Assembly (NCBI GenBank): GCA_020832495.1
Contig: JAFIEP010000059.1
Span: 1-53,619, forward strand
Reading direction: 5' to 3'
DNA length: 53,619 nt
Source: Acidimicrobiia bacterium
GTDB taxonomy: Bacteria; Actinomycetota; Acidimicrobiia; Acidimicrobiales; Acidimicrobilacustridaceae
In this document: positions 15,633-32,090 of the stretch, piece by piece
How positions within the stretch are numbered: the first letter of the stretch is position 1
Layout: each line of letters starts with the position of its first letter
The notes under the pieces: generated by a model
What the model saw: the letters and a program-made list of their open reading frames with translations, nothing else
What the model was told of the DNA's origin: nothing
The model's database searches: none
Position numbers and translations under genes: made by a program

Positions 15633-18014
15633 ATGTCCTCCCCCGGCTCGAGTGCTGCCTACGACGTCGACATCTGCTGGACGACCAACGGGGTTCCCCA
15701 CATCACGGCGGACGACTGGGGATCACTCGGCTTCGGGCAGGGCTATGCCTGTGCCCGTGATCGGGGACTGGGCATCGCCGACCACGTCCTGAAGGTGCGG
15801 AGCGAGCGCAGCGCATTCTTCGGCGCAGGGCCTGACAACCGGCACCTCCACAGTGACCTGGGCTATCGGGTGCTCGACATCGGCCGGCGGGCAGCCGTGG
15901 CCATCGAGGGCCGCTCCGAGGAGATCCGGGCACTGGTTGCCGGGTATGCCGCCGGCTACAACCGCTGGCTCGAGGAGCTCGATCGAACGACGTTGCCCGA
16001 CTGGTGTGGGGACGGCTCGTGGATCCGGCCGATCGACGAGTTGGATCTGTCCGCGGTGTACGTGGACCTTGCGCTGTTGGGCAGCGGCCGCAACCTGGTG
16101 GAGTACCTCGGCGCGGCAGACGCGCCCGGGGTCGGGGACCATCCGCTTCCCCCGCCGATGCCACCGGCAGGTACCGACCTGGCGGGGTCGACCGATCACG
16201 GCAGCAACGGCTGGGCGTTCGGAGGTGACGCCACGGTCAACGGTCGTGGCATGGTCATGGCCAATCCTCACTTCCCATGGCACGGGGAGGGGAAGCTCTG
16301 GGAGTGCCACCTGCGGATCCCAGGGGAACTCGACGTCTACGGCGCTGCCCTCGTCGGCTGCCCCGGCGTCCAGATCGGCTTCAACGACAGCGTGGCCTGG
16401 ACGCACACCTTCTCCCGGGGGCACCGGTTCTGCGTCTACAAGCTGGCCATCGCCCCGGGAGCACCCACGCGCTACGTCCACGGTGGAGCCGAGCACGACA
16501 TGGTGGCCACCGAGGTCGAGGTCGAGGTCCTCGGCGCTGACGGCGAGCGCACGGCGCACCGCGCGACCCGTTGGCGCACCCACCACGGCCCGGTGCTCAA
16601 CCTGCCGCTGTTGGGTTGGACCTCGGACATGGCGTTCTCCTACCGCGACGCCAACATCGACAACGACTGGTTCCTCGAGCAGTCATTGGCCCAGTGTCAG
16701 GCCCGATCGGTCCCCGAACTGGCCGAGTCCTACGAACGGATCGGCGGTCTGCCCTGGGTCAACACCTTGGCCGCCGACCGGGACGGTCGTTGCTGGTACA
16801 TCGATTCGAGTGCCACCCCGGCACTGTCGGCGAGCGCACAGGAGCGGTACGACCATGCCGTCGACACCGACCCGCTGGTGGCGTTGCTGGCCGGACTGCG
16901 GGTGGCCCTCCTCGACGGGTCTGACCCCGACGACGACTGGGTGGACCACCGGGGTGCACCTGCTGGGGGACTGGTGCCGTTCGATCAACTTCCCCAGATG
17001 CACCGACGGGATCACGTCTTCAACGCAAACGACCCCTACTGGCTGCCGCACCCCACCGAACAACTCCCGCGTCACTCCCCGATGCACGGGCTGTACCACC
17101 GTCCGCTCGGGGCGCGGACCCGGGCCAACGCTTTGGCGCTGGCCGGACATGGGGTGATCCGCCCGGCCGATCCCGACGGTCGATTCACGCCCGATGAGGT
17201 GGAACGTCTTCTGGCAGCCAGCGAGTCGCTGGTGGCCACTGAACTCCGGGCACCGGTCGTGCAACGGCTCCGCAGGGCCGCCACCGATTCGGCGCTGGAC
17301 ACCGCCACCGCGCAGGTCGTCCTCGACGTGGCGGCAGTGTGGGACCAGTGGGACGGCTGCTTCACCCTCGACGCGCCGGGTGCCCCGCTGTGGCGAGAGT
17401 TCCTGGCCGGCTTCGACGAGGGTGCGCTCACCGCTGCGGGGCCGCTGTGGTCCGAACCCTGGTCGGCGCACGAACCGACGACCACACCCCGCCGATTGGC
17501 TCCTGCCCCGGACGGGGCCGACCCCGTGGTGGTCGCCGTGCTCGCCGCCTGCGAGGCGTTGGCTGCCGCCCGCCTCGAGCCGTCCAGCACCTTGCGACAG
17601 TGTCAGTGGGCCTGGCGCGGCTCGGTCCGCGCCGCCTTGCCCGGGGGTGGGGAGGTCGAGGGCGTGATGAACATCTCCATGCCCGTCGGATCATTGAGCA
17701 GGGCAGACCTGGCGCCCGACGATCCACCGTCGGGGCCGGTACCGGGTCGCACCGAACGAACGGGGCTCACCGAGGAGGGCTACCGCATCACCTACGGCGC
17801 CAGCTTCGTCATGGTGGTGAGCTTCGATGACACGGGGCCCGTCGGTCGAGGGCTGCTGGTGTACGGCCAGAGCGACGATCCGGCCCGACCCGAGCACGCC
17901 GATCAGGTCGATGCCTTCGGTCGAGGGGCGCTACGTCCGCTGCTGTTCCGCGACGAGGACATCGAGGCGGATGTGTCGCTGCGGCGGGTGCGGATGCGCG
18001 GCCCGGCGCGCTGA
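15633..18014 (+). CDS. Penicillin-acylase-family Ntn hydrolase (PvdQ/AHL acylase-like)
   Basis: Ntn amidohydrolase of the penicillin G / acyl-homoserine-lactone acylase family, 793 residues. Such enzymes are made as one chain and self-cleave before a Ser that becomes the N-terminal nucleophile. Here Ser191 in DHGSNGWAFGG fits, followed by NGRGMVMANPHFPW and the GFNDSVAWTHTFS segment, close to PvdQ. That gives an alpha chain of about 190 residues and a beta chain of about 600. Unlike the periplasmic enzymes there is no signal peptide: the protein begins directly with the substrate-domain strand. The true substrate (AHL, fatty-acyl peptide or siderophore precursor) cannot be read from sequence. 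Confidence 0.85.
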   Translation: MSSPGSSAAYDVDICWTTNGVPHITADDWGSLGFGQGYACARDRGLGIADHVLKVRSERSAFFGAGPDNRHLHSDLGYRVLDIGRRAAVAIEGRSEEIRALVAGYAAGYNRWLEELDRTTLPDWCGDGSWIRPIDELDLSAVYVDLALLGSGRNLVEYLGAADAPGVGDHPLPPPMPPAGTDLAGSTDHGSNGWAFGGDATVNGRGMVMANPHFPWHGEGKLWECHLRIPGELDVYGAALVGCPGVQIGFNDSVAWTHTFSRGHRFCVYKLAIAPGAPTRYVHGGAEHDMVATEVEVEVLGADGERTAHRATRWRTHHGPVLNLPLLGWTSDMAFSYRDANIDNDWFLEQSLAQCQARSVPELAESYERIGGLPWVNTLAADRDGRCWYIDSSATPALSASAQERYDHAVDTDPLVALLAGLRVALLDGSDPDDDWVDHRGAPAGGLVPFDQLPQMHRRDHVFNANDPYWLPHPTEQLPRHSPMHGLYHRPLGARTRANALALAGHGVIRPADPDGRFTPDEVERLLAASESLVATELRAPVVQRLRRAATDSALDTATAQVVLDVAAVWDQWDGCFTLDAPGAPLWREFLAGFDEGALTAAGPLWSEPWSAHEPTTTPRRLAPAPDGADPVVVAVLAACEALAAARLEPSSTLRQCQWAWRGSVRAALPGGGEVEGVMNISMPVGSLSRADLAPDDPPSGPVPGRTERTGLTEEGYRITYGASFVMVVSFDDTGPVGRGLLVYGQSDDPARPEHADQVDAFGRGALRPLLFRDEDIEADVSLRRVRMRGPAR

Positions 18015-18026
18015 ACGGCGTCCCGG

Positions 18027-18032
18027 TAGCAT
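18027..18032 (+). promoter_or_regulatory. Putative -10 of the GGDEF-EAL gene
   Basis: TAGCAT predicts +1 at 18039, one base before a GTG at 18040. This favours the GTG over the ATG at 18076. Confidence 0.4.
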
Positions 18033-18039
18033 CTGGGCG

Positions 18040-20769
18040 GTGGCGGCTGCAAGGTCGCCCGGGGCGGAAGGTCGCATGGACGGAGCAGCTGCCGAGCGCA
18101 CGGACCCGGAGGCAGTCGACGGTGGGATCGTGGGCCACCTGCGCCCTGGGCAGCGGATCGTGCTCGCTGGCGGCTACCTGGCCCTGACCGCCGCCGGCAG
18201 CTGGGCGGCCATGCAGTTCGAGGTCGATCAGTTCTCGGTGTTGTTCCCTCCTGCAGCCTTGGCACTGGCCTACCTGGTGCTCGTCGGCCCCAAGGGTGCC
18301 CCGGTCGTGATCGTGGCCCGCCTGGCCTTCGTCACCCCGCTCTCGGCCGGGGTGAGCTGGCCGGACTCGTTGCCACGAGAGTTGGGTCGCGCCCTGGTGG
18401 TGACGGCGGTGTACCTGGCTGCTGCCATGATCCTGCGCCGGATCGGGATGCACCACGCCCGGCTGCGTCAGTTCGGCTGGTTCGCCGTCGTGGGGGTGTT
18501 CGGTGCGCCGCTCGTCGCAGCCGCGGGTGTGGCGGTGGTCGACGTGGCCGTGGGCGATGCCACGCTGGCGAGTGCTGGCGAAGGTGCTCGGGTGTTCTGG
18601 ACGGGGGACGCGGTGGCGGTGGCGACCATCACGCCGGTGATCCTTTTGGCGGCCTGGCGGTGGAGGTTCGGGCAACCTGTTCGGCGACCACCCCTGACGT
18701 GGACCCGACGCGTGGAGGCAGCGGCCCAGGCCCTGGCGGTGGTGCTGGTCCCGGTGGTGGCCTTGGCGCTGGGCACGGCCCGCGGTCCGACGCCGTTGCT
18801 CGGCCTGGCGGTGCTGCCCGCGCTGTGGGTGGCGCTGCGCCACGATCTCCTCGTCGGCGCCGTGGGCGTGCTGGTGCTCAACACGGTCATCGCTGCTGCG
18901 ATGGCCCATGGGGTGGGCGTTGACCTGGCGTTGGTCGAGTTGCAGACGGTGATGCTGGCCGGCGCCCTCGGGGCGTACTACGTCGGGGCGCAGACCCATA
19001 CGACCGAGGTGATCGTCGACGAGCTGCGGTCTCGGGAGGAGCGTTTCAAGGCGCTGCTCGACAGCCTGCCCGAACTGGTGGTGACGTTCGATCGGAACGG
19101 CTCGGTCATCAGCTCCAACTCGCCCCCGGCCCGCTGTGGCACCGAAGCGACGGACCGGGCCATCGTCGACCAGCTCCGCAGCTCGTGGCGTCAGCAGGGC
19201 GCGTCAGTGGCGGCGGGTGGGGGCCCGCGCCAGCACGAGTGGGCACTCGACGACGGCGATGGCCAGCGATGGTTCGACACCCACTTCGTCCCCCAGCACA
19301 GCGGTGCAGGTGAGGTGAGCGGGATCATGACGGTGACGGCCAACCTCACACCCGAGCGGGAGGCTCGGGCACGTCTCGAACACGAACGGTTGCACGAGGC
19401 ACTGACCGGCCTCCCCAACCGGCGGGCCGGCACGATGCTGCTCGAGGAACTGCTGGCGTCGGAGGAGGCGACCACCGGCGCGTCGGTCGCTGCGGTGGTC
19501 GGCGTCGACCTCGACCGGTTCCACCTGCTGAACCAGTCGTTGGGCCACGCCGTGGGCGATGCCGTGCTGGGCGACGTGGCGAGGCGGTTGCAGCAGTGCG
19601 CCGAGCGCAACCGAGCACATCTGATGCACCTCGGTGGTGACGAGTTCGCCCTGGCCGTGCTCTGTCCTCCCGACGGTGCAGCGGCCCAGCGCTGTGCCGA
19701 CGATGCGTTGGACGCCGTGCGTGCGCCACTGCACCCGGCGCTCGGCGGGAGCGCCGAGGGGATCGGGGTGATCCTCACCGCAAGCGTGGGGGTGCGGGTG
19801 GCCGGTGACGCCGACATCGCTCCCGACCAGCTCCTCCACGATGCCGAAGTGGCGGTGAACGCAGCCAAGGAACTCGGTCGCGATCGCGTGGTCGTGTTCG
19901 ACGACGAACAGCGACGCGAAGCACGGGACCGGCAACGTCGCATCGCAGGCCTCCATGCCGCGCTGGCCAACGACGAGTTGATCGTGCACTTCCAGCCCGA
20001 GGTGGACCTCCGCAGCGGTGACATCGTCGGCTTCGAGGCGCTCGTGCGGTGGCGGACCGCGGACGGGCTGGTTCCTCCTGGGGAGTTCGTGCCGCTGGCC
20101 GAGGAGCTCGGACTGGACGTGGACCTGGGGACCCGCGTCTTCGACCGCTCCTTCGCCGCCGCTGCGGCGTGGCCGGAAGGCGATCGGCAGTCGCGCCCGA
20201 CGCTGAGCGTGAACGTGACGGCGCGTCACATGGTCACCGCGGGCTTCGTCGACGATCTCGTGGCGCTCGCCGAGCGCCACGGGTTGGACCCGTGCGATGT
20301 GCGCCTCGAGCTGACCGAGACCTCGATCATGACCGATCCCGAACGGGCGGCAGCGGTCATCGCCGAGGTCCGACGCTGTGGTGCCACGGTGGCACTCGAC
20401 GACTTCGGCACCGGCTATTCCTCGATCAGTCAGCTCCAACGCCTGGGTGTCGACGTCCTCAAGATCGACCGCAGCTTCGTGGCCGGCCTGCCCGACGACA
20501 GCGGCGCCCGAGCGATCGTGTCGCTCGTCGTGGGGCTGGGCGAGGCGTTGGGCATCGCAGTCACCGCCGAGGGGGTCGAGACCGAGGCTCAGCGACAGTG
20601 CCTGGTCGAGTTGGGCTGCGGGGTGGGCCAGGGCTACCTCTTCGACCGACCTGCCGACCACGCCTCGACACTCGACCTGCTGGCGCGCGTGCACCGGTAC
20701 CACGTCGGGCGGCCAGCCGACGTGGCCGCACCCACACCCGACCGGGACGCCACTGCCATCCTGCGATGA
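18040..20769 (+). CDS. MASE1-PAS-GGDEF-EAL cyclic-di-GMP enzyme
   Basis: Membrane-anchored c-di-GMP signalling protein of about 909 residues. N-terminal eight-or-so helix MASE1-like sensor (LFPPAALALAYLVLVGPKGA, WPDSLPRELGRALVV), a PAS-like segment (EERFKALLDSLPELVVTFDRNG), a GGDEF domain with LTGLPNRRAG and intact HLGGDEFAL, and an EAL domain with GFEALVRW, ELTETSIM, DDFGTGYSS, KIDRSFV and AEGVET. Both catalytic motifs look intact, so it could make and break c-di-GMP. Start: GTG 18040 is preferred on the leaderless box; ATG 18076 with GGAAGG before it is the alternative. It follows the acylase gene by 25 bp. Confidence 0.92.
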   Translation: MAAARSPGAEGRMDGAAAERTDPEAVDGGIVGHLRPGQRIVLAGGYLALTAAGSWAAMQFEVDQFSVLFPPAALALAYLVLVGPKGAPVVIVARLAFVTPLSAGVSWPDSLPRELGRALVVTAVYLAAAMILRRIGMHHARLRQFGWFAVVGVFGAPLVAAAGVAVVDVAVGDATLASAGEGARVFWTGDAVAVATITPVILLAAWRWRFGQPVRRPPLTWTRRVEAAAQALAVVLVPVVALALGTARGPTPLLGLAVLPALWVALRHDLLVGAVGVLVLNTVIAAAMAHGVGVDLALVELQTVMLAGALGAYYVGAQTHTTEVIVDELRSREERFKALLDSLPELVVTFDRNGSVISSNSPPARCGTEATDRAIVDQLRSSWRQQGASVAAGGGPRQHEWALDDGDGQRWFDTHFVPQHSGAGEVSGIMTVTANLTPEREARARLEHERLHEALTGLPNRRAGTMLLEELLASEEATTGASVAAVVGVDLDRFHLLNQSLGHAVGDAVLGDVARRLQQCAERNRAHLMHLGGDEFALAVLCPPDGAAAQRCADDALDAVRAPLHPALGGSAEGIGVILTASVGVRVAGDADIAPDQLLHDAEVAVNAAKELGRDRVVVFDDEQRREARDRQRRIAGLHAALANDELIVHFQPEVDLRSGDIVGFEALVRWRTADGLVPPGEFVPLAEELGLDVDLGTRVFDRSFAAAAAWPEGDRQSRPTLSVNVTARHMVTAGFVDDLVALAERHGLDPCDVRLELTETSIMTDPERAAAVIAEVRRCGATVALDDFGTGYSSISQLQRLGVDVLKIDRSFVAGLPDDSGARAIVSLVVGLGEALGIAVTAEGVETEAQRQCLVELGCGVGQGYLFDRPADHASTLDLLARVHRYHVGRPADVAAPTPDRDATAILR

Positions 20770-20889
20770 GCGTCGGTGCCGCCCACCGGAGGGTCGGTTC
20801 CGCTGTCCACGGCGCGTCCGCTCGGCGGACACCCCGTGTTACCGTTCGAGTCGTCCCGAGTACAGGCTGCGGAGAGGGGTTCGTCCGAC

Positions 20890-21429
20890 ATGCGTTCGAA
20901 GTTGCTTGCGATCTTGATGGCCACGGTTGTCGTGTTCGGCGTCGGTGCGTGTGGCGGTGACGACAGCGAGCCGGCACCGGCGGATGATGCCGCTGACGCC
21001 CCGTCGGCGCCGGTCGAGCCCGGGCAGGGGGAGGATCCGGTGGACCCCGGCACGGACCCGGGTGCGGACACCATCGAGACGGTTCCCGTCAACGCTGCAG
21101 CGTGCGATGCCGTGGCCGCCTATGTCGATCTCGGAGCGGTTGATGCGTCGGACCCAGCGGCGTTCGAAGCCGGGATCCGTGCCAACAACGAGGTGATGCA
21201 GCAGTTGGCGGCGGCGGCAGAACCGAGCTGGGAAGCCCAGGCGACCTCCGGTGCCGAGGGCTACGCGTTCCTCATCGAGCAACTGGGGCCCTACGACTTC
21301 GAGATGGACGCGCTTCCCTCCGACGTACGCCAGGAGGTGGGCCAGCGCATGCTCGGCAGCGAGGGTGAGCAGTTGCTCCGGCTGCTGGCATCGGTGCAGG
21401 TCAGCTGCGCCGAGATCGCCGAGGAGTAG
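20890..21429 (+). CDS. Putative lipoprotein of unknown function
   Basis: 179 residues. Signal peptide with lipobox GVGAC (Cys21), then an acidic, Pro-rich linker (about 25-65) and a small helical domain with cysteines near AACDAVAAYVDLG and VSCAEIAEE, probably disulfide-linked. The family is not recognised. The ATG at 20890 follows GGAGAGGGG. Its last 29 bases overlap the 3' end of the convergent membrane-protein gene. Confidence 0.7.
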   Translation: MRSKLLAILMATVVVFGVGACGGDDSEPAPADDAADAPSAPVEPGQGEDPVDPGTDPGADTIETVPVNAAACDAVAAYVDLGAVDASDPAAFEAGIRANNEVMQQLAAAAEPSWEAQATSGAEGYAFLIEQLGPYDFEMDALPSDVRQEVGQRMLGSEGEQLLRLLASVQVSCAEIAEE

Positions 21430-22957
21430 AGCCCGCACCGAGGGCGGACCGCTGGCCTGGTCCCGTGCGATCGGGCAGCACCGTGTCGGGGAGCACGGTG
21501 TCGGGCTGTCCGGTGTCGACCTCCACCGTGGCACGGCGGCGCCCACTCGTGCCGGACACCATCGACGGTTCCTTGGTTCGCTCGCTGGTGGCCCTCACCA
21601 CGCGGCTGCCGGCCGTGACCGCCAGGAGGCACAGGACCAGCGGCAACACCTGCGTTCGCTGGCGCGCCAGGATCCCGAAGTTCCCGATGGCGGAGAAGGC
21701 GTAGACGAACAGCATCGTGTACGTGGCGGCGTAGATGAGGTAGGGCTGGACGCGTGCGACGCGAACGGCGGCCACCACCCGGGGGATCGACACGGCGATC
21801 ACCAAGGCCAACAGCACACCCTCGGCCGAGGCCACCAGTGAGTCGAGCGACCTGGCCTCGAACGGGAGTGGTCGGAACAGCACCGTCGCCAACGCCGGCG
21901 GATAGTGCAAGGGTGTGCTGACGCGCACTGGCTCGAAGCCGGCGCCACCCTGGGTGGTTCGTTCGGCTGCGAACTCGAGGGTCGTGCCCACCTCGGTGGT
22001 GCCCAGGTTGTCGACGTCGAAGTGCTCGGCGGTGACGTTGGCCAGCGCGATCCCAGCGACGAGGGCCACGGCCGCCAGTCCGACGCGACCGGCCGCACGT
22101 GTCCGGCGCTCGGCGCCGGCGCTGCGCAGCACGACCGCCACGACGAGGCCGACGACCACGATGAGGGCGACATGCGGCCGCACCATTGCGGCGATGAGGA
22201 GTCCCCCGGCCAGCTGGGCGAGGCCGAGCGCTGCCCGGTGGGTCAGCAGCCGCGCCACCCCCAGGCTGGCCAGACCCAACCCGAGGAGCATCACTGACTC
22301 CTTGCCCAGGCTGTTGGGCCAGTACCACAGTGCAGGCCACAGGGCGATGAGCACTGCGTACCGCTTCACGTCCCCTGAGGGGACCGCAATCCGAAAAGCT
22401 CGGTGGAAGAGGAACATCGAGCCGATCGAGAACAGCGTCACCGCACAGAAGACGGCGTAGGGGTCGTCGAAAAGTATGGCGTTGAGCGCGCCGCTGAGGA
22501 GGCGGATGGTTCCCGTGCCCGGGACGCTGCGCTCCGGGTCGACGTCGAAATCGAAACGTCGGAAGGACGCGGCCAGGTCTTCCCCGACCCGTTGGTAGAC
22601 CCGGGCGTCGACCGCGTCGCGGTAGCGAAAGAACATGCCGATGAACCGGAGCCCGACACCGGTGGCGAAGATGGCGGCCAGATCCACCCCGGCAGGGGCG
22701 TCCCGACCGGCGCGAGCACACAGCGCGAGCGCCAACATCATGGCGACAGGGAGGACGTACGGCGTGGACAGCGGTGCCGGATTGGCGAAGAACATGCCGA
22801 CGAACCCGACGACCAGCGCGACGGCCAGCGTGCAGGCCGCCACGATCCGCCAGCCGTTGTTCGAGCCCCGACCCGATGCTGCCGGGTCGGCCCCCTCGGG
22901 CGACGTGTCAGGGTCGGTGGCCACCGCCTCCCATCGTCGGGAGATGCCGAGCGTCAC
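21401..22957 (-). CDS. Polytopic membrane protein of the polysaccharide operon
   Basis: 518 residues with about ten to twelve predicted membrane helices. A large loop carries RFIGMFFRYRDAVDARVYQ and YWPNSLGKESVMLLGLGL, then VRPHVALIVVVG, a pattern seen in uncharacterised polymerase- or glycosyltransferase-like (GT-C/Wzy-type) proteins. No firm family. The last 60 residues are hydrophilic with a repeated PDTVL motif encoded by degenerate 15-bp repeats (about 21465-21515). It is the last gene of a four-gene operon: its start overlaps the stop of the nucleotidyltransferase gene by four bases. A Wzy-like polymerase or chain-transfer protein is the natural guess. Confidence 0.65.
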   Translation of the reverse strand: MTLGISRRWEAVATDPDTSPEGADPAASGRGSNNGWRIVAACTLAVALVVGFVGMFFANPAPLSTPYVLPVAMMLALALCARAGRDAPAGVDLAAIFATGVGLRFIGMFFRYRDAVDARVYQRVGEDLAASFRRFDFDVDPERSVPGTGTIRLLSGALNAILFDDPYAVFCAVTLFSIGSMFLFHRAFRIAVPSGDVKRYAVLIALWPALWYWPNSLGKESVMLLGLGLASLGVARLLTHRAALGLAQLAGGLLIAAMVRPHVALIVVVGLVVAVVLRSAGAERRTRAAGRVGLAAVALVAGIALANVTAEHFDVDNLGTTEVGTTLEFAAERTTQGGAGFEPVRVSTPLHYPPALATVLFRPLPFEARSLDSLVASAEGVLLALVIAVSIPRVVAAVRVARVQPYLIYAATYTMLFVYAFSAIGNFGILARQRTQVLPLVLCLLAVTAGSRVVRATSERTKEPSMVSGTSGRRRATVEVDTGQPDTVLPDTVLPDRTGPGQRSALGAGSTPRRSRRS

Positions 22958-24012
22958 GAGCGTCCCATCCGCTCGCCGGTCCTGCGGAGCTTGTCGAACG
23001 TCGAGGGGCCCAACACGCTGAAAGCGTAGAGCACGCGTTCGCGCACGGTGGGTAGGGCCTCAGCAGCCAGAAGGGTGCGGGTGCGTGACCCCGAGGCGCC
23101 GCGGTCGTAGCCGGCCAGCCAGCGACGGTCCCTCGCCGTCGGTCGGAGCGCCGTGGCCCAGCGGAGCAACTCCCCGCGAAAGCCCTCTGGCTGCCACGAG
23201 AGCAGCTCGCCCGCACAGGCCACGGCGCGTGCAACCACGGCGACACCGCCGGACCGCTCGGCGATGGAGATGGCGTGGTGGGCATCGTCGGGGGTGGCCG
23301 GGAGCAGTTGGGCGACGTCACGCACGGCGGACAGGCGCCGGTGCGGTCCGCTCAGCGATGTGTGGTAGCAGGCGTGCAGGAAGCGCCAGGAGGGGTCCAG
23401 CGCAGGCAGTTCACGGGTGGCCAGGGTGAACCGACTGACACCGGAGAGGAGGTCGTCGAGGTCGATGGCCAGGCCGTAGGGCCCGAGACAGAGCGTTCGA
23501 TGGACGTCCACCTCGATGGCGCTGGGAAGCGTGAAGGCGGCTCCCTTACCGAAGCGCCGGTCGAAGACGGCGCCTGGGTGGTGATGGCGTCGGCCGCCAA
23601 TCCCTTCGAGCAGGGCGTAGACCCGTTCGATGTCGGACCCGGCGACGAGGAGATCGATGTCACCGAAGGAGCGCAGCGCCGGGTCGTCGTAGTCGAGGTG
23701 CGCGCTGGCCACCCCCTTGAGGACACGCCAGCGGAGGCCGGCCTCGTCAAGGTGGTCGGCCATCTCGAGCGCGGTTCGCTCGAGGAGCAGTGCGGTGGAC
23801 ATGGCGCGGCGGTGGGTCTCCGCGGCGGAACGGCGCTGCGCTTCGGTGCAGGGCCATCCAGCGGCCAGCGCAGCCACGAGGAGACCTTCGATGCGGTGTC
23901 GGCGGACGTTGGCGAGGAGGCGTTGCCATGCCCGGTCCTCCAGTGGAGCCGAGAGGCCCGCGTCGTCGTTGTCGACCAAGCCCCACCGGGCGACGAGCGT
24001 CGTCGGGTCCAC
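22954..24012 (-). CDS. Nucleotidyltransferase family protein (PF14907-like)
   Basis: 352 residues resembling the uncharacterised nucleotidyltransferase family NTP_transf_5. Seen: an N-terminal helical region, WRVLKGVASAHLDYDDPALR, the metal-binding SFGDIDLLV (the D-x-D of a pol-beta-type site), a later IEVDVHRTL, then a helical C-terminal part. Members are found in exopolysaccharide clusters and next to PqqD-like genes, as here. The transferred group and acceptor are unknown. GTG start at 24012, two bases after the PqqD-like gene; the stop overlaps the next start by four bases. Confidence 0.75.
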   Translation of the reverse strand: MDPTTLVARWGLVDNDDAGLSAPLEDRAWQRLLANVRRHRIEGLLVAALAAGWPCTEAQRRSAAETHRRAMSTALLLERTALEMADHLDEAGLRWRVLKGVASAHLDYDDPALRSFGDIDLLVAGSDIERVYALLEGIGGRRHHHPGAVFDRRFGKGAAFTLPSAIEVDVHRTLCLGPYGLAIDLDDLLSGVSRFTLATRELPALDPSWRFLHACYHTSLSGPHRRLSAVRDVAQLLPATPDDAHHAISIAERSGGVAVVARAVACAGELLSWQPEGFRGELLRWATALRPTARDRRWLAGYDRGASGSRTRTLLAAEALPTVRERVLYAFSVLGPSTFDKLRRTGERMGRS

Positions 24013-24014
24013 GG

Positions 24015-24290
24015 TCAGGGCGGCGGGACCGCAACGACCTCGAGTGCGCCGTGGTCCACGAGCATACGGGCCACCGACTCGACATCGGCGCCGATGTCGG
24101 CATCGTGTCCGTACACCTCGGCGATCTCGGAGGCGACCTCAGCCGGTCGACGCGATCCGTTCCAACGGCGCCACACCTCGGCGGCGGACTCGTTCAGTGC
24201 CAGGGGATCATCGGCCCCCGAGGGGAGGATGAGCACACCGTCGAGCAAACTGCGGCTCAGCACCAGCGGACTCCGTCGCAGGAGCGACAT
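24015..24290 (-). CDS. PqqD-like small protein
   Basis: 91 residues. PqqD folds are small winged-helix modules (RiPP recognition elements) that bind peptide leaders, but many stand-alone copies occur in polysaccharide loci with unknown roles. Here: RSPLVLSRSLLDGVLILPSG, the typical LNESAAEVWRRW, a helix with VASEIAEVYG, then DIGADVESVARMLVDHGALE. The open frame extends far upstream but antisense-like; the ATG at 24290 follows the kinase stop by four bases. No radical-SAM enzyme or precursor peptide gene is nearby, so a classic PQQ or RiPP pathway is not supported. Confidence 0.75.
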   Translation of the reverse strand: MSLLRRSPLVLSRSLLDGVLILPSGADDPLALNESAAEVWRRWNGSRRPAEVASEIAEVYGHDADIGADVESVARMLVDHGALEVVAVPPP

Positions 24291-24294
24291 CGGC

Positions 24295-26355
24295 TCAGCG
24301 TCGCCCCGACGGTCGGCCCTCGATCCGAGCACCGTCGCCCTCGACGACGCCCGCCGGCACTGTGTCGGCATCGGCATCGGCATCGGCATCGGTGTCAGGG
24401 GTACCGGCGGTCGGAGCCTCGACGGTGTCGGCATCAGCCGACTCGGGGTCAGGGGCGTCCGGGTCAGGGGTGCCGGTGTCGGCGTCACGGGTCTCACTGT
24501 CAGGAGCCTCGTCGGCGTTGGCGTCGGCGCCGGTGTCATGGGCGCCGGTGGTCGGAGCCTCGACGGTGGCAGCGTCGGGTTCAGGGGTCTCGGCGACGGG
24601 GGCGTCAGCGGCTGGGGTGTCAGCCGCCGAAGTGTCGGAGGTGGAGGCTTCTGCAGCGGACGTGGGATCCGGCCCCGACGGATCCGGCTCGGCGGAGGTG
24701 TCGCTGCTGGACGGGGGCTCGCGTCGCGGAGGCCCGCTGGCATCGTCGTCGAGGTAGTAGTCGCCGTAGTAGTAGTAGCGAGCGGACGGTGCCTCGGTGG
24801 CGGCGACGAGGACCACGCCGAGGACGGAGGCGTCGCGGCGGTCGAGAGACTCCGCGCAGCGGTCGGCACTCTCACGTGTGGTCTTGCCGGCGCGGGCGAC
24901 CACCACGACGAAGTCGCAACTCGACAGGATCTCGTTGGCGTCGTTGGTGGTGAGCAGCGGAGCCGAGTCCAGGATCACCCAGTCGAAGCGGCGCCGGGCC
25001 TCGTCGATGACCTGGCGCTGCAGGTCCACGATCTCGGCCGGGTTGGCCTCAGACGCCCCCTCGCGGACCTGCGCGAGGAGGTGCACGTTGTCGTACTGGG
25101 TGTCGATCACACGCGGGGGAGCGTTCTCGACGCCCATGTACCCGCCCAGCATCGGTCGGCGGAAGTCGCAGTTGACCACGAGGATCCGCCGGCCGGTCTC
25201 ACCGAGTACCGATGCCAGGTTTGCGACGGTGGTCGTCTTTCCTTCGGCCGGGCTGGCCGACGTGATGAGTAGCACGTGACCCTGGGGCTGCGAGCCCTCG
25301 GCCGGTGCGGCCCCGACCGACGCCGAGTCGCCGTCGCCCCCCTCTTCGGACGCTCGCTGACCGGCGACGAAGAGCAGCGCGGAGCGCAGCACACGGTAGG
25401 CCTCAGCGGTGCGAGAGCGAGGCGCATCATGGGCCAGGATGACGTGTTCCTGTTGTTGGGCGCGGGTGAGCGGAGGGATCTCGGCCAGCACCGGCCACCC
25501 GAAGGTGCTCTCCACGTCGGCCTTCAGTCGGAGGCGGGGATCCAGCCGGTCGACGACCAGCGCAGCGGCCAGGCCCATGGCCAGGCCGCCCATCAGGCCG
25601 AGGACGATGCGCGGGAAGAGACCGATGGCAATCCCGGGCTCGAGCGCCGCGGCCGCCTCGTCGTCGGCGGGCGCCGGTCCGTCCTCCGAGGCGAACAGCT
25701 GCCGGAACTCCGGCCCGCTGATGGGAATGGCCTCTGCCGGATCGACCGAGACGAGCGTCGACGTGCGCTCGAGTTGGTTGACGGTCCGGTCGCGCTCGCT
25801 CTCGAGCGCAGCGAGCTGGCTGACCACTTGTTCGCGCTGTTGCACCTGCACCAGCGCGTCGAGGTCGGTGGCAGGTTCGGTGGCCACGATATTCGCCAGG
25901 ATGGCCTCGAGGTCGCTGATCTCGGCTTCGAGTCGGGTCAGCTCCGAGCGTTGCTGCTGGGAGAGGATCTCGTCCATGTAGCCGGTGAGCTCGTCGGCGA
26001 AGGTGTTGGCCAGCACCACGGTCCGTTCGGGGTCGACACCCAGGGCGGTCACCTCGAGAAAGCCCACGTCGTCGCGGACCCGCGAACGGATCTGGGCGGC
26101 CAGCTCGACCGGCTGGCCGTCGAGATTGGCCGCGACTCGTTCTGGTACCTCGGCAGTCCGCAGGAACGCTGCGGCCTGGGCAAGGTTCACCGAGCCGCCG
26201 GGTGGGACGGCGAGAGTGTGGGTGGCCTGGTAGAGGCTGGGGTCGTCGCCGCGCAGGATCCACGAGGTGAGCGCGGCGAACAGTCCGAGAAGGGTGATTG
26301 TCGCCACGATCGCCCAGCGGCGTCGGACGATGCGAAGTGTGGCGACGAAATCCAT
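24295..26355 (-). CDS. Wzz-type chain-length regulator fused to BY-kinase
   Basis: 686 residues combining polysaccharide co-polymerase and bacterial tyrosine kinase, controlling capsule/exopolysaccharide chain length and export. Two membrane helices (about 14-34 and 248-268) flank a coiled-coil-rich extracytoplasmic part (120-200). The cytoplasmic kinase has Walker A SASPAEGKTTT (366-376), A' LVVNCDFRRP (392-401) and B WVILDSAP (459-466). A tyrosine cluster RYYYYGDYY (526-534) is the likely autophosphorylation site. Then comes an unusual 150-residue acidic tail rich in Ala, Asp, Pro and Thr, ending in DADADADADAD from 6-bp repeats. First gene of a four-gene operon. Confidence 0.9.
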   Translation of the reverse strand: MDFVATLRIVRRRWAIVATITLLGLFAALTSWILRGDDPSLYQATHTLAVPPGGSVNLAQAAAFLRTAEVPERVAANLDGQPVELAAQIRSRVRDDVGFLEVTALGVDPERTVVLANTFADELTGYMDEILSQQQRSELTRLEAEISDLEAILANIVATEPATDLDALVQVQQREQVVSQLAALESERDRTVNQLERTSTLVSVDPAEAIPISGPEFRQLFASEDGPAPADDEAAAALEPGIAIGLFPRIVLGLMGGLAMGLAAALVVDRLDPRLRLKADVESTFGWPVLAEIPPLTRAQQQEHVILAHDAPRSRTAEAYRVLRSALLFVAGQRASEEGGDGDSASVGAAPAEGSQPQGHVLLITSASPAEGKTTTVANLASVLGETGRRILVVNCDFRRPMLGGYMGVENAPPRVIDTQYDNVHLLAQVREGASEANPAEIVDLQRQVIDEARRRFDWVILDSAPLLTTNDANEILSSCDFVVVVARAGKTTRESADRCAESLDRRDASVLGVVLVAATEAPSARYYYYGDYYLDDDASGPPRREPPSSSDTSAEPDPSGPDPTSAAEASTSDTSAADTPAADAPVAETPEPDAATVEAPTTGAHDTGADANADEAPDSETRDADTGTPDPDAPDPESADADTVEAPTAGTPDTDADADADADTVPAGVVEGDGARIEGRPSGRR
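24365..24388. repeat. 6-bp microsatellite in the BY-kinase tail
   Basis: Four perfect GGCATC copies on the plus strand, coding alternating Asp-Ala on the minus strand. Any change in copy number would keep the frame and change tail length. Confidence 0.8.
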
Positions 26356-26399
26356 GAAGGGGACAGCTCAGCGGCTCACGCGAGTCGAGACGAACCAAC

Positions 26400-26405
26400 A
26401 TTCTA
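26400..26405 (-). promoter_or_regulatory. Putative -10 of the Wzz/BY-kinase operon
   Basis: TAGAAT on the minus strand (GTGTG-TAGAAT-GTTGG), close to consensus, predicts a start near 26393 and a 38-nt leader before ATG 26355. No convincing -35. Confidence 0.45.
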
Positions 26406-26530
26406 CACACCGCCCCTGACGTGACCGGCATCACCGGACGGGGTCCGACGCCCCGGTGCCCGGCGGCCTAACGTGGGTAGATCACCAGACAGAACACTGC
26501 CCGGTGACGCCGAGCAAGGAGATGACTGCG

Positions 26531-27562
26531 ATGAAGGTGGCCATGCTGACCGGTGGTGGCGACTGCCCCGGCTTGAACGCCGTCATGAGGGCGGTGACCC
26601 GCAAGGCGGTTCGTCACCACGGCGACGAGGTCGTCGGCTTCCGGGATGGCTGGCGCGGTGTGCTCGAGGCCGACGTGATGGACCTGTCCGTGGACACCTT
26701 CCGGGGCACGCTTCCTCGGGGCGGCACCGTACTCGGGTCGTCGCGCACCAATCCGTTCAAGGTTGACGGCGGCGTCGAGGCGTGCAAGGAGGCGTTGGGC
26801 GACCTCGGGATCGATGCACTGGTGGCCATCGGTGGTGAGGACACCCTTGGCGTCGCCCACAAACTGGCCGAGCTCGGCGTGCGGGTCGTCGGCGTGCCCA
26901 AGACCATCGACAACGACCTGAGCGGCACCGAGCTCACCTTCGGCTTCGACACCGCAGTGTCGATCGCCACCGAGGCCATCGACCGGCTCCACACCACCGC
27001 CGAGTCGCATGACCGCGTCATGGTGGTGGAGGTCATGGGTCGCCACGCCGGCCACATCGCCGTGTGGTCGGGGATTGCCGGAGGTGCCACCTATGTGCTG
27101 ATCCCCGAGGTGCCCTTCGACATCGACGAGGTGTGCGACGCCTTGCGCCGACGCCACGCTGCGGGGCGCTACGCCTCGATCGTGGTGGTCTCCGAGGGAG
27201 CGACCCCCACCGAGGGCACGATCCAGGTGGCAGCCGACGAGGTCGACGAGTTCGGTCACGTCCGACTCGGCGGCATCGGTTCCACCGTGGCCGACGAGAT
27301 CAAGCAGCGCACGGGCTTCGACACGCGGGTCACCATCCTCGGTCACGTCCAACGCGGTGGCACCCCCACGGCCTACGACCGAGTGCTGGCCACCCGCTTC
27401 GGCGTCGCCGCCATCGAGGCCGTGCACGACGAGGCATGGGGGACGATGGTGGCGCTGCAGGGCGGTGAGATCGTCCGGGTGTCGTTGGCCGAGGCCGTGG
27501 GCACGCTCAAGCTGGTCGATCCGTCGCTGTACGAGGTGGCCCAGGTGTTCTTCGCAGGTTGA
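26531..27562 (+). CDS. pfkA: 6-phosphofructokinase, pyrophosphate-type active site
   Basis: 343 residues from ATG 26531, chosen because AAGGAG (26516-26521) lies 9 bases upstream; the in-frame ATG at 26522 touches it. Phosphorylates fructose 6-phosphate. The donor can be read from two positions: ATP enzymes carry Gly104 and Gly124 (E. coli numbering), PPi enzymes Asp104 and Lys124. Here the loop is IGGEDTLG with Asp104, and PKTIDND has Lys124, so pyrophosphate is the likely donor and the step would be reversible. Other motifs: GGGDCPGLNAV, MGRHAGHIA, LGHVQRGGTPTAYDR. Followed after 7 bp by an acyl-CoA ligase. Confidence 0.92.
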   Translation: MKVAMLTGGGDCPGLNAVMRAVTRKAVRHHGDEVVGFRDGWRGVLEADVMDLSVDTFRGTLPRGGTVLGSSRTNPFKVDGGVEACKEALGDLGIDALVAIGGEDTLGVAHKLAELGVRVVGVPKTIDNDLSGTELTFGFDTAVSIATEAIDRLHTTAESHDRVMVVEVMGRHAGHIAVWSGIAGGATYVLIPEVPFDIDEVCDALRRRHAAGRYASIVVVSEGATPTEGTIQVAADEVDEFGHVRLGGIGSTVADEIKQRTGFDTRVTILGHVQRGGTPTAYDRVLATRFGVAAIEAVHDEAWGTMVALQGGEIVRVSLAEAVGTLKLVDPSLYEVAQVFFAG

Positions 27563-27569
27563 GCCCGAC

Positions 27570-28922
27570 GTGTCGGGTCCCGTCCTGCTCGGCGCAGCGA
27601 GCGCCGAGCAACGTCAACGTCGGTTGGCCGGGGGGCTGCGCTCGATGGGCCTGCGTCCGGGCGACCGGGTGCTGGTGTCCGCGTCGCTCGACGCCGACCG
27701 TCTCCTCGTGGTGCTCGCCGCACTGCGCACCGGCATCGTGCCGCTGGTGCTGCACAGCGGACTTCTCGAGCACGAGCGTCAGCGCCTGGTGGACGATGCC
27801 GAGGTCGCCCTCGTCGTGGACGACGTCGTCGTGGCCGATCTCGACGCTGCGGCACCGACCGAGGTCGCGCCGTGGCCCCTGGCCCGCCCCATGCACTACA
27901 CGTCGGGGACGACCGGCGTCCCGAAAGGTGTGTTCAGCGGCGTCCTGAGCGAGACCGAGGCAGCCGCGCTCTTCGCAGCCGAGGCTGATCTGTGGTCCTT
28001 CGCGCCGACCGATCGACACCTCGTCTGTTCACCGTTGCACCACTCTGTGTCGATTCGCTTCGCCGGACACACGCTGTTGCGCGGTGGCGAGGTGGTGCTG
28101 CCGGGACCGTTCGACGCCCGGCGGGTCGCCGCACTGCTCGCTCGAGCGGAGGTGACCACCACCTTCATGGCCCCCGCCCACCTGCAGCGCCTGGCCGAGG
28201 TGTGGTCGGGAGGTGCTCCCGACACGCTGCGGTTGCTGGCACACGCCGGGTCTCCCTGCCCCGAGGGGCTGAAGCGATGGGCCATCGACGGGTTCGGCGC
28301 GCCCGTGGTGTGGGAGTTCTACGGGTCCACCGAGGGTCAGTTCACCGTGTGCTCGGCGCCCGAGTGGTTGGAGCGGCCCGGGACCGTCGGACGATCCCGC
28401 CCTGACCGGCGCGTGACGGTCGACGAGGAGGGCACGATCTGGTGTGACGTGCCGTCCGAGGCGCGTTTTCGCTACTGGGGTGATCCGACACGCACTGCCG
28501 AGGTGTGGCGGGCGCCGTCGGCGGAGCACCTGCCGAACGGAGCACGGGCGACAGGGGCCTTCACGGTGTCGGATCTGGGGCGGTTGGACGACGACGGCTA
28601 CCTCTGGCTCGACGGCCGGCGCAACGACCTCATCATCAGCGGCGGGGTGAACGTGTATCCCGCCGAGGTGGAACAGGCGCTGCTCGGGGTGGTCGGCGTG
28701 GTCGACGCCGCGGTGTTCCCCACCGACGACACCCGATGGGGGCAACGAGTGTGCGCTGCGGTCGTGGGCGACGTCGATGTCGAGCAGCTCCGCGTCGAGC
28801 TGCGATCGCGTCTGGCGGCGTACAAGTGTCCCAAGACGGTGCTGGTGGTCGACGAGGTGCCTCGTTCGAGCACCGGCAAGGTGCAGCGGTACCGGTTGGC
28901 CACTCAGCTCGGTCTGAGCTGA
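27570..28922 (+). CDS. AMP-forming acyl-CoA ligase
   Basis: Adenylate-forming enzyme activating an unknown carboxylic acid as its CoA thioester. 450 residues, short for the family because the N-terminal subdomain is reduced. Seen: P-loop YTSGTTGVPKGV, CSPLHHSVSIRFAG, EFYGSTEGQFTV, the hinge LDGRRNDLIISGGVNVYPAEVE, and the catalytic lysine in PRSSTGKVQRYRL. The GTG at 27570 lies 7 bp after pfkA, suggesting co-transcription. The longer open frame begins inside pfkA and is not real. A MenE-like role is possible but not indicated by neighbours. Confidence 0.85.
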   Translation: MSGPVLLGAASAEQRQRRLAGGLRSMGLRPGDRVLVSASLDADRLLVVLAALRTGIVPLVLHSGLLEHERQRLVDDAEVALVVDDVVVADLDAAAPTEVAPWPLARPMHYTSGTTGVPKGVFSGVLSETEAAALFAAEADLWSFAPTDRHLVCSPLHHSVSIRFAGHTLLRGGEVVLPGPFDARRVAALLARAEVTTTFMAPAHLQRLAEVWSGGAPDTLRLLAHAGSPCPEGLKRWAIDGFGAPVVWEFYGSTEGQFTVCSAPEWLERPGTVGRSRPDRRVTVDEEGTIWCDVPSEARFRYWGDPTRTAEVWRAPSAEHLPNGARATGAFTVSDLGRLDDDGYLWLDGRRNDLIISGGVNVYPAEVEQALLGVVGVVDAAVFPTDDTRWGQRVCAAVVGDVDVEQLRVELRSRLAAYKCPKTVLVVDEVPRSSTGKVQRYRLATQLGLS

Positions 28923-28958
28923 GGTGCTGCCGTCGATGTGGGCATCGGCGGTGCTGCT

Positions 28959-28973
28959 CGGCCCGTCGGGCCG
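28959..28973. terminator. Hairpin between convergent genes
   Basis: CGGCCC-GTC-GGGCCG, a perfect 6-bp stem with a 3-base loop, lies in the 65-bp gap between the convergent ligase and GerMN lipoprotein genes. It could end transcription from both sides. No T run. Confidence 0.4.
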
Positions 28974-28987
28974 GGTGTCCCCAGGGC

Positions 28988-29824
28988 CTAGTTGGCGCCA
29001 CCTGGTCCACCAGAGGACTCCGGTTCGTCGGCGCGGTCGCGCTCTGCGGTCTCGGCTGCTTCCACGGCGGCGAGGTACCGGAGCAGGTTGTCGACCTCCT
29101 CGGCGGTGAGTTCGCTCTGCGCAGCCGCCGAGCGGTTGAAGCGGGGGAAGTCGGACCGGGTGACCGCCGCGCCTGGTTCCGCCGTGGCGTCCTCGAGGGG
29201 CACGGCTCGTCGTTCGCCGTCGATCGAGAACCGCACGGCGCTCACCTCTGGGTGTTCGGTGGCGGTGAACACGATCTGGGCGACGGCCAACCGTTGGGCG
29301 GTGGCGCTCACCGTACCGAGCGCCGACAGGTCGAGGTCCAAGATGTTGCCGCTCAGCGAGGAGGCCACGATGGTGAGATCCGGGGGCAGGCTGTTGGTCA
29401 GCGAGGTGGCGCAGTTCTCGTCCTCGGCCGGGTTCAACTGGACGAGCTCGCGGAGCATGTTGAGCACCCGGTCGGCTGTCTCGGCGGCCTCCGGTACGGG
29501 CACCTCACAGGCCACGAGTTGTTCCTCACCGCCGTCGGGCCCGACGAACCACAGGGCAGCACCGGTGGTTGGCACGTCGGTCGGCAGCGTCGTCGGAGGT
29601 GACGTCTGCTCGGTCAGCTCTGCCGGGATGAGTTCGGACGGGAGCGCCACTGGTTCACTGTCGTCGTTGATCGCAGTGCAGCCTCCGGCCACGAGAGCGA
29701 CCAGGACGGCGAGGCTGGCCGTCAGCCGTCGGTGGCCCGCCGCCGAGGTGCTCGATCTACTCGATCTGCGCGATCTGCGCGATCTGCGCGATCCGTGCGA
29801 CGTGTGCGATCTGCTCGACGTCAT
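28988..29824 (-). CDS. GerMN-domain lipoprotein (short LpqB-like)
   Basis: 278 residues. In actinobacteria the mtrA-mtrB operon ends with lpqB, whose lipoprotein product modulates the sensor. This gene has that position and the GerMN core (LNMLRELVQLNPAE..., LDLDLSALGTVSATAQRLAVAQIVFT, VRFSIDG), but lacks the C-terminal beta-propeller-like half of LpqB. Lipobox VAGGC (Cys49). The 33 residues before the hydrophobic core are Ser/Arg-rich (RRSRRSRRSSRSS), encoded by a 9-bp tandem repeat, an unusual lead for a signal peptide. The ATG overlaps the kinase stop (ATGA). Confidence 0.75.
   Translation of the reverse strand: MTSSRSHTSHGSRRSRRSRRSSRSSTSAAGHRRLTASLAVLVALVAGGCTAINDDSEPVALPSELIPAELTEQTSPPTTLPTDVPTTGAALWFVGPDGGEEQLVACEVPVPEAAETADRVLNMLRELVQLNPAEDENCATSLTNSLPPDLTIVASSLSGNILDLDLSALGTVSATAQRLAVAQIVFTATEHPEVSAVRFSIDGERRAVPLEDATAEPGAAVTRSDFPRFNRSAAAQSELTAEEVDNLLRYLAAVEAAETAERDRADEPESSGGPGGAN
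29762..29788. repeat. 9-bp tandem repeat in lipoprotein N-terminus
   Basis: Three perfect copies of CGATCTGCG with degenerate flanking copies. It encodes the Arg/Ser repeat at the start of the GerMN lipoprotein. Confidence 0.85.
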
Positions 29825-31347: not shown

Positions 31348-31400
31348 CGGTTCGCGCCACCTCGAGCGCAGGGGCGACCCGTGGTCCGGTGTCGCAACCC

Positions 31401-32090
31401 TCAGGTCTGCAACTTGTAGCCGAGGCCCCGCACCGTCACGACGTGACGGGGGTTGGCGGGGTCGGACTCGATCTTGGTGCGGAGACGCCGGATGTGGACG
31501 TCGACCAGCCGACCGTCCCCGAAGTAACCGTACCCCCACACACGCTCCAAGAGCACCTCGCGCGAGAACACGCGGCCCGGCGACGAGGCGAGTTCGACGA
31601 GCAGGCGGAACTCGGTCTTGGTGAGGTGGAGTTCCTCCCCGTTGCGCAGCACCATCCCTTGTTCGGGCAGGATCTCGAGGTCACCGAACGTGAGGTGCGT
31701 GATGGCGGGGTCGTGGGTCCGTGCGCGGCGGAGCAGGGCACGGATGCGAGCGGAGAGTTCCTTGGGGGCGAACGGCTTGGTGAGGTAGTCGTCGGCGCCG
31801 GCCTCGAGGCCCGCCACGACGTCATGGGTGTCCGCTCGGGCCGTGACCATGACGATCGGAACGTCGCTGGCCCGACGAATGGACCGGCAGACCTCGAACC
31901 CGTCGATCCCGGGCAGCATGATGTCGATCAGGACCACGTCGGTGGGATGGCGGTTGAAGATCTCGAGCGCGGCCTCGCCGTTGTCGGCTTCCTCGACGGC
32001 CCAGCCCTCGTCCTCGAGGGCCATCTTGACCGCGGTGCGGATGCGTTCGTCGTCCTCGACGGTAAGGATGCGCGTGCCCACGGCCATCAT
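31401..32090 (-). CDS. mtrA: OmpR-family response regulator, MtrA-like
   Basis: 229 residues, the same length as mycobacterial MtrA. The receiver domain has acidic residues in LTVEDDE, phospho-acceptor Asp56 in VVLIDIMLPGIDG, and Lys in DDYLTKPFAPKEL. The winged-helix DNA-binding domain has VFSREVLLERVWGYGYFGDGRLVDVHIRRLR and ends VTVRGLGYKL. ATG 32090 (or the adjacent ATG 32087) is chosen; the open frame upstream is non-conserved. The gap to the kinase is 53 bp. It probably controls envelope genes and its own operon. Confidence 0.88.
   Translation of the reverse strand: MMAVGTRILTVEDDERIRTAVKMALEDEGWAVEEADNGEAALEIFNRHPTDVVLIDIMLPGIDGFEVCRSIRRASDVPIVMVTARADTHDVVAGLEAGADDYLTKPFAPKELSARIRALLRRARTHDPAITHLTFGDLEILPEQGMVLRNGEELHLTKTEFRLLVELASSPGRVFSREVLLERVWGYGYFGDGRLVDVHIRRLRTKIESDPANPRHVVTVRGLGYKLQT

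Follow-up and report, generated by a model that had tools for sequence, protein, structure and literature searches.

A PqqD–nucleotidyltransferase operon of an Acidimicrobiia bacterium as a possible half of a RiPP-like protein-modification system tied to exopolysaccharide

What does a PqqD-type recognition element do in an operon together with a Wzz-like kinase and a membrane protein? The question is raised by contig JAFIEP010000059.1 of an Acidimicrobiia bacterium (assembly GCA_020832495.1), whose full length of 53,619 nucleotides is called the window below; it is one (C5) of 147 contigs of a 4.46 Mb genome. Four genes encode a bacterial tyrosine kinase (BY-kinase)-like protein (KIN), a PqqD protein, a nucleotidyltransferase-fold protein (NTP5) and a polytopic membrane protein (MEM). 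An earlier note, made from the sequence alone, had remarked that no radical S-adenosylmethionine (SAM) enzyme, peptidase or precursor gene accompanies them, which holds within the operon (a genome-wide radical-SAM search was not made); the solution to this puzzle likely lies outside the coordinates which that note covered. We assign a probability of about one half to the reading that the operon supplies one of the two halves of a system that modifies proteins, is linked to exopolysaccharide and resembles the pathways of ribosomally synthesised and post-translationally modified peptides (RiPPs). The other half would comprise an HprK-related kinase and proteins with a W-x-x-P motif in their twin-arginine translocation (Tat) signals. 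There is good support for the claim at the level of the system; its chemistry is put forward as a hypothesis.

The operon and its conservation

The following features of the window were considered:

24295–26355, minus strand: KIN, Wzz/BY-kinase-like protein of 686 aa with an acidic low-complexity tail (AAA_31 above and eps_fam below cut-off; Walker A, A' and B in the translation)
24742–24780, minus strand: tyrosine cluster RYYYYGDYYLDDD in the KIN tail (sequence and translation; similar clusters in relatives)
24015–24290, minus strand: PqqD / RiPP-recognition-element protein of 91 aa, start codon ATG (PF05402, 39.0 bits; profile match to TbiB1 and PqqD structures)
22954–24012, minus strand: NTP5, NTP_transf_5 nucleotidyltransferase-fold protein of 352 aa (PF14907, 115.2 bits; model with a predicted local distance difference test score, pLDDT, of 88)
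23653–23673, minus strand: RSFGDID in NTP5 with a likely metal-binding Asp pair, D118 and D120 (invariant in alignments; putative catalytic role)
21401–22957, minus strand: MEM, polytopic membrane protein of 518 aa with a predicted glycosyltransferase-C (GT-C) fold (model pLDDT 72.7; predicted template modelling score, pTM, 0.75)

The gaps between the four genes were +4, +2 and −4 bases (the last a 4-base overlap), as given in the earlier note, and its view of them as a single operon is supported. The gene order is not a matter of chance, as it recurs in other genera. Within 21000–26600, no match to a sigma-70-like promoter was obtained; terminator-like matches numbered 5 (1.1 expected), with none at the boundaries between the four genes and two, on the minus strand, inside MEM.

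NTP5 gave matches in 16 of 61 related genomes, and a scan of GTDB contigs with a five-sequence NTP5 alignment yielded 36 loci. According to local profiles, which were built partly from some of the same loci, 30 of these carry PqqD, 28 HprK, 9 KIN and 8 MEM, with KIN or MEM in 10 and both in 7. In 9 of the 10 eligible loci PqqD adjoins NTP5 beside KIN and/or MEM, which bears out the expectation of the earlier note that the pair is kept beside BY-kinases in relatives; HprK was present in 8 of the 10 and a Tat W-x-x-P protein in 5. Loci with misses include short contigs (L055, 7.4 kb; L080, 8.3 kb; L063, 11.8 kb). KIN or MEM was found in Acidimicrobiia, Nitriliruptorales, Propionibacteriales, Pseudonocardiales and Tetrasphaera, among others.

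Another genus of the same family (G004, locus L059) has all four genes in identical order, and KIN, PqqD and NTP5 are consecutive on one strand in the window and eight loci (L055, L059, L067, L068, L088, L090, L091, L094). The cleanest case is the non-seed genome G076 (L090), found independently, with KIN-PqqD-NTP5-MEM-HprK-PqqD on one strand; judged by this arrangement, the window operon appears to be a longer unit that has been split. The cassette is likewise extended by HprK and another PqqD in L068 and L088, and in L059 PqqD precedes HprK. KIN-PqqD-NTP5-MEM forms a conserved unit to which HprK and another PqqD are often added. Since other loci hold the PqqD–NTP5 pair, or NTP5 alone, with neither KIN nor MEM, the association with these two genes is frequent and not universal.

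A UDP-glucose/GDP-mannose dehydrogenase gene lies near the cassette in L057, L063, L067, L068, L071, L080, L090 and L092 (Pfam-confirmed for L068 and L090, the remaining loci by local model), and its recurrence suggests a uronic-acid polysaccharide.

HprK and the Tat-signal proteins

The window genome contains two PqqD genes and one strong HprK match (E = 2.4e-69; next match 4.4e-5). The latter is a 461-aa PqqD-HprK fusion on contig C84 (L051:8481-9866, minus strand), which retains the GKS P-loop and the T-D-E motif, and a W-x-x-P Tat gene (L051:5782-6483) is located 2.0 kb from it. PqqD-HprK fusions or neighbouring pairs recur in other genomes.

Tat signals ending in W-A-A-P were recurrently seen near HprK-PqqD genes. 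Fourteen were aligned (A3), in which both R residues and P are invariant and W and the two A residues reach at least 90%. The model was searched in the 61 genomes (E<1e-5) and gave 45 matches in 12 genomes, at most 10 per genome, 7 of them in the window genome. All 12 genomes have a strong HprK (E<=1e-20; 15 of 61 overall; Fisher p = 2.6e-10), and the association held at genus level (p = 6e-7), among the 32 genomes of at least 3 Mb (p = 5.8e-8) and with a loose HprK count of 23 genomes (p = 7.8e-7). PqqD exceeded the cut-off in 12/12 (25/61 overall), and NTP5 was present in 10 of the 12 vs 2 of the 49 others (p = 4.5e-8). As the genomes are related, these p-values serve as guides only. Four of the 12 genomes had supplied the seeds of the Tat model and the remaining eight none; a generic Tat model matched 52 of the 61 genomes with no association (p = 0.18). 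HprK thus tracks the class of W-x-x-P Tat-signal proteins genome by genome, and these proteins are the likely substrate class.

The rows used were 45/70 for Tat (E<1e-5), 58/62 for PqqD (over cut-off), 18/25 for NTP5 (E<1e-10) and 25/42 for HprK in the strict count, with all 23 genomes taken in the loose one. Up to 119 Tat and up to 39 HprK candidates were scored per genome, so that the Tat and HprK counts are lower bounds.

With seeds excluded, 39 W-x-x-P Tat genes remain. Of these, 5 are no more than 3 kb away from HprK, where 0.11 would be expected; for PqqD at the same distance the number is 6, compared with 0.21 expected. Among 198 spread-sampled Actinomycetota, the special Tat signal was found in 8, seven of which have PF14907 (66/198 overall, p = 0.002); in the eighth, G187, PqqD-HprK directly adjoins two W-x-x-P Tat genes.

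The candidate substrates measure 81–555 aa. In the window genome the W-x-x-P signal is common to diverse Tat-exported proteins (L051:5782-6483, L096, L097, L107 and L108, on contigs C84, C101, C116, C17 and C75). An NCBIfam scan of 7 Tat proteins yielded nothing beyond the generic Tat model and a single match that looks due to chance. A Cys within the last four residues, a possible second cargo signal, was present in 22 of 35 W-x-x-P Tat proteins vs 30 of 374 other called genes (two of the 37 Tat proteins were left out, one being truncated at a contig end and one containing a masked or unknown stretch), and some (L034, L071) have LPxTG-like ends; given both kinds of C-terminus, the final anchoring may vary. 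In one open frame, L034:9594-11552, a PqqD-like domain follows a Tat signal with W-x-x-P and an LPRTG-like sorting end; the frame is either a gene fusion or two genes lacking an intervening stop. A large repeat protein with an LPYTG-like C-terminus is encoded in a polysaccharide/Tat locus (L035:4249-6873).

Resemblance to lasso leader peptides

After the twin Arg, W-x-x-P-x-hydrophobic was found in 35 of 37 special Tat proteins (22 of 23 non-seeds), as in WVAPQI, WAAPVI, WAAPSV and similar words. It was found in 0 of 40 generic Tat signals, one of which has Y/F-x-x-P; these controls were hand-picked from 127 rows of the same 61 genomes, leaving out rows (at least 9) that coincided with W-x-x-P Tat matches. 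Precursors in lasso-type NTP5 loci of Pseudonocardiaceae, found by pattern in 6 of 16 loci, read YVAPAV, YVAPVV, YAAPGI and YVAPEI, i.e. Y-[A/V]-A-P-x-[I/V]. According to the accessible part of a published study, Tyr(−17), Pro(−14) and Leu(−12) of a lasso leader are needed for recognition by the B1 protein (PMC10368454). The likeness in aromatic-x-x-P-x-hydrophobic is a resemblance between sequences, and the best clue that PqqD may read the Tat signal as a leader.

The window PqqD exceeds the PF05402 gathering cut-off of 23.4 bits, and the family profile (A6) matches the solved lasso B1 protein TbiB1 (E = 2.1e-11) and also PqqD structures; what the earlier note called PqqD-like is a true PqqD by sequence. 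A role as leader-peptide binder is suggested by the likeness of W-x-x-P to Y-x-x-P-x-L.

Predicted functions of the operon products

NTP5 clearly exceeds the PF14907 gathering cut-off (31.2 bits), and D118 and D120 are invariant in 15/15 and 17/17 aligned sequences. The folds nearest to its model were MenT1 (Z 14.6), ANT(2'') (12.3) and LnuA (11.5), with a lower match (Z 7.8) to FKRP, which we take to be a phospho-alditol transferase; the modelled fold would be compatible with transferring a nucleotide or a sugar phosphate. Searching the sequences of solved structures with NTP5 produced no match at E<=1, and a plasmid search gave only 4 distant matches (26–31% identity).

The MEM model, realigned to solved structures, matched GT-C enzymes: ArnT (Z 20.2; 291 residues aligned, root-mean-square deviation 3.8), ALG12 (18.2), oligosaccharyltransferase (OST)/AglB (17) and Pmt4 (16.5), with unrelated structures at Z <=7.2. 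The match covers roughly residues 84–450, at 6–13% identity in the structure alignments, and D117 and Y121 are invariant in 9/9 aligned sequences. Foldseek alone was weak (best E 0.018, an oligosaccharyltransferase), and no Pfam family matched the window protein at E<=1, unlike those GT-C enzymes. Wzy_C was also considered as an identity of MEM: one of 9 members matched (1.6e-4) and the window MEM did not. From the model, MEM is assigned a GT-C glycosyltransferase fold. ArnT acts on a phosphate group as acceptor, and OST and protein O-mannosyltransferases (PMT) act on proteins; both properties would suit the role proposed for MEM below. The polysaccharide setting suggested by the earlier note gains support from this fold and from the UDP-glucose dehydrogenase genes beside several relatives.

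KIN matches AAA_31 (34.7 bits, cut-off 27). Its best NCBIfam match, eps_fam TIGR01007, scores 89.8 bits, under the curated cut-off of 108.05, and Wzz (PF02706) scores 12.7 bits, under the cut-off of 25.5 (E = 0.17). The hallmarks of BY-kinases are Walker A, A' and B and a tyrosine cluster in the tail, all of which are present in the translation (SASPAEGKTTT, ILVVNCDFRRP, DWVILDSAP and RYYYYGDYYLDDD, respectively).

Proposed pathway and alternatives

We infer the following pathway. Before export, the Tat protein would be bound at its W-x-x-P stretch by PqqD proteins, in the way in which a lasso B1 protein recognises its leader; one PqqD would serve HprK and the other NTP5. HprK would phosphorylate a hydroxyl group of the cargo in the cytoplasm, and NTP5 would attach a sugar to the added phosphate, as reported for PsmN. 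The tagged protein would be exported by Tat; outside, MEM may extend the tag or join it to a lipid-carried glycan, with chain length set by the Wzz/BY-kinase. Exported proteins would end up covalently attached to surface polysaccharide.

Several observations weigh against this proposal. The two halves lie on separate contigs of the window genome, with no W-x-x-P Tat gene beside the operon. Two of the 12 W-x-x-P Tat genomes (G012, G060) have no strong NTP5, and without seeds the Tat-NTP5 linkage is weak (1/39 within 3 kb, p = 0.08), so that the link to the cargo depends less on NTP5 than on HprK and PqqD. Three genomes have a strong HprK and no W-x-x-P Tat signal, and G035, with a Tat match just outside the threshold (1.5e-5), has no HprK or PqqD matches. 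The Tat model came from cassette neighbours gathered partly by a pattern that required [AGST]AP and did not require W; AP is therefore partly selected, the choice of pattern having left just W and the spacing unaffected, and later matches were obtained through a model already containing the motif. HprK may not need the motif, because one lasso precursor with either Tyr(−17) or Leu(−12) replaced by Ala was still phosphorylated, as far as the accessible part of the study reports (PMC10368454). The modelled NTP5 fold would suit nucleotidylation equally well. Finally, the fusion of the window genome scores under the cut-offs of HprK_rel_A (56.1 vs 200) and PqqD_rel_X (22.5 vs 35).

The four genes could instead form an ordinary exopolysaccharide operon, with the Tat W-x-x-P proteins linked to it indirectly through a common lifestyle and with PqqD and NTP5 acting on another protein or on a glycan donor. 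Sugar-nucleotide dehydrogenase, PMT_2-type and Polysacc_synt_2 genes near relatives agree with this, as do the 34 of 39 non-seed Tat W-x-x-P genes that are not within 3 kb of HprK. We regard it as rather unlikely, since lifestyle does not explain the 12/12 HprK profile, a linkage far over expectation or the common aromatic-x-x-P-x-hydrophobic motif.

A true RiPP pathway, whose substrate would be an unrecognised short precursor elsewhere in the genome and for which the Tat proteins would be bystanders, draws on the occurrence of PqqD, HprK and NTP5 in lasso clusters. The cyclase scan took in 35 of the 36 NTP5 loci (L054-L088, with L089 entering the profile counts alone), and 15 of them contain a lasso-type asparagine-synthase-like cyclase by local model; two lasso-type loci were checked by Pfam, which showed Asn_synthase in both and, in a single locus each, Transglut_core3 and an ABC transporter. 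Yet none of the 15 cyclase loci has KIN, MEM or a Tat W-x-x-P protein. The whole window genome gave 0 matches to PF13471 (lasso B2-type peptidase) at E<=0.01, because of which a lasso cluster in trans was rejected for it, and no asparagine-synthase-like cyclase was detected in positions 17001–32000 of the window by local model (a genome-wide search was not made). Such a pathway appears improbable.

In the best segment, NTP5 from the 15 cyclase-bearing loci shares 39–45% identity with the window protein. A tree of 51 NTP5 sequences places the lasso rows, together with one unlabelled row, in a single well supported group among polysaccharide/Tat rows, next to L063, and joins the window sequence to L059 as a pair (96/71, not starred); the direction of change is not readable from this tree because it was rooted by midpoint. 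Lasso-type clusters with HprK and/or NTP5 were seen in Amycolatopsis, Prauserella, Actinophytocola and Haloechinothrix (L066, L061, L077, L081 and others in L056-L083), and in L081 a lasso precursor with the leader word YVAPEI lies near 9714-9511 on the minus strand.

The earlier note had proposed that PqqD may recognise the BY-kinase tail, or direct the attachment of a nucleotide to a carrier of the polysaccharide pathway. The consecutive position of KIN, PqqD and NTP5 on one strand in the window and eight loci speaks for it. However, the tail contains no aromatic-x-x-P word (the two present in KIN, FGWP and FRRP, are in the folded part), PqqD-NTP5 occurs without a kinase in the fetched stretches L027, L075 and L082, and relatives in lasso clusters have a peptide substrate. 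The tail was dropped as a target on the first two grounds, and because both the genome profile and the gene neighbourhood indicate that the enzyme missing here is HprK and that Tat-signal proteins are the substrates; we see little chance for either version of this idea. Of the earlier interpretation as a whole, the operon, the PqqD assignment, the polysaccharide setting and the conservation of the pair are supported, and the kinase tail as a target is not.

That PqqD and NTP5 are a toxin–antitoxin pair with a MenT-like toxin, as the nearest solved folds (MenT1, ANT(2''), LnuA) might suggest, is very improbable and was rejected on gene neighbourhood, given that the pair is stably kept within a biosynthetic cassette in several families and also occurs in lasso clusters; moreover, PqqD is not known as an antitoxin fold.

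Relation to described systems

The proposed RiPP-like modification of Tat-exported proteins resembles the phosphorylation and hexosylation of lasso peptides (paeninodin with PadeK; pseudomycoidin with PsmK and PsmN), where an HprK-like kinase, a PqqD/B1 protein and a nucleotidyltransferase act on a leader-bearing substrate. PsmK phosphorylates pseudomycoidin and the nucleotidyltransferase PsmN adds one or two hexoses; alternatively, PsmN may nucleotidylate and a host glycosyltransferase then act, both according to the accessible part of a review (PMC9266682). The NTP5 subfamily of the window is present in lasso clusters of Pseudonocardiaceae. Unlike the lasso systems, the window genome has no PF13471 and the operon no cyclase nearby, the candidate substrates are Tat-exported proteins, and the cassette adds a BY-kinase and a GT-C enzyme. 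The earlier note had called the function of the PqqD-NTP5 pair undescribed: no paper on a KIN-PqqD-NTP5-MEM/HprK system was found in the open-access literature, with a description possible in the subscription literature, which was mostly outside the search. The statement goes too far in that hexosylation of a phosphorylated lasso peptide by PsmN has been reported (PMC9266682, as far as accessible) and that the NTP5 family occurs in lasso clusters.

The NCBIfam HPr-rel-A system (TIGR04352 kinase, TIGR04353 PqqD) likewise has an HprK-related kinase adjoining PqqD, and TIGR04352 was the top NCBIfam match for the three cassette HprKs scanned. However, these score 56–107 bits against a cut-off of 200, and PqqD 22.5 against 35, which places them outside the curated families.

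In PEP-CTERM/exosortase (EpsH), several diverse exported proteins per genome carry a short sorting signal, with profile-matched machinery and a link to exopolysaccharide, according to the accessible part of the original report (PMC1569441). The proposed system differs by the N-terminal position of the signal in the Tat peptide, the Actinomycetota hosts and the partner found, HprK/PqqD/NTP5. Tentatively, it may be a new protein-sorting and glycan-attachment system of Actinomycetota, in which the Tat signal doubles as a RiPP leader and to which lasso phosphoglycosylation is related. It would then be an actinobacterial counterpart of the exopolysaccharide-linked PEP-CTERM system. RiPP recognition elements would not be confined to small peptides, as entire Tat-exported proteins would be modified under their guidance; a substrate would be available for PF14907 and HprK-related kinases where these occur outside lasso clusters; and a short signal would be defined from which the cargo of any genome could be identified.

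Neighbouring genes

The divergent gene upstream of the operon reads by eye like a phosphofructokinase. On the 3' side lie a small gene without family and the gene of a MASE1-PAS-GGDEF-EAL protein (17827–20769), both on the plus strand. Enzymes of cyclic di-GMP metabolism are frequent regulators of exopolysaccharide.

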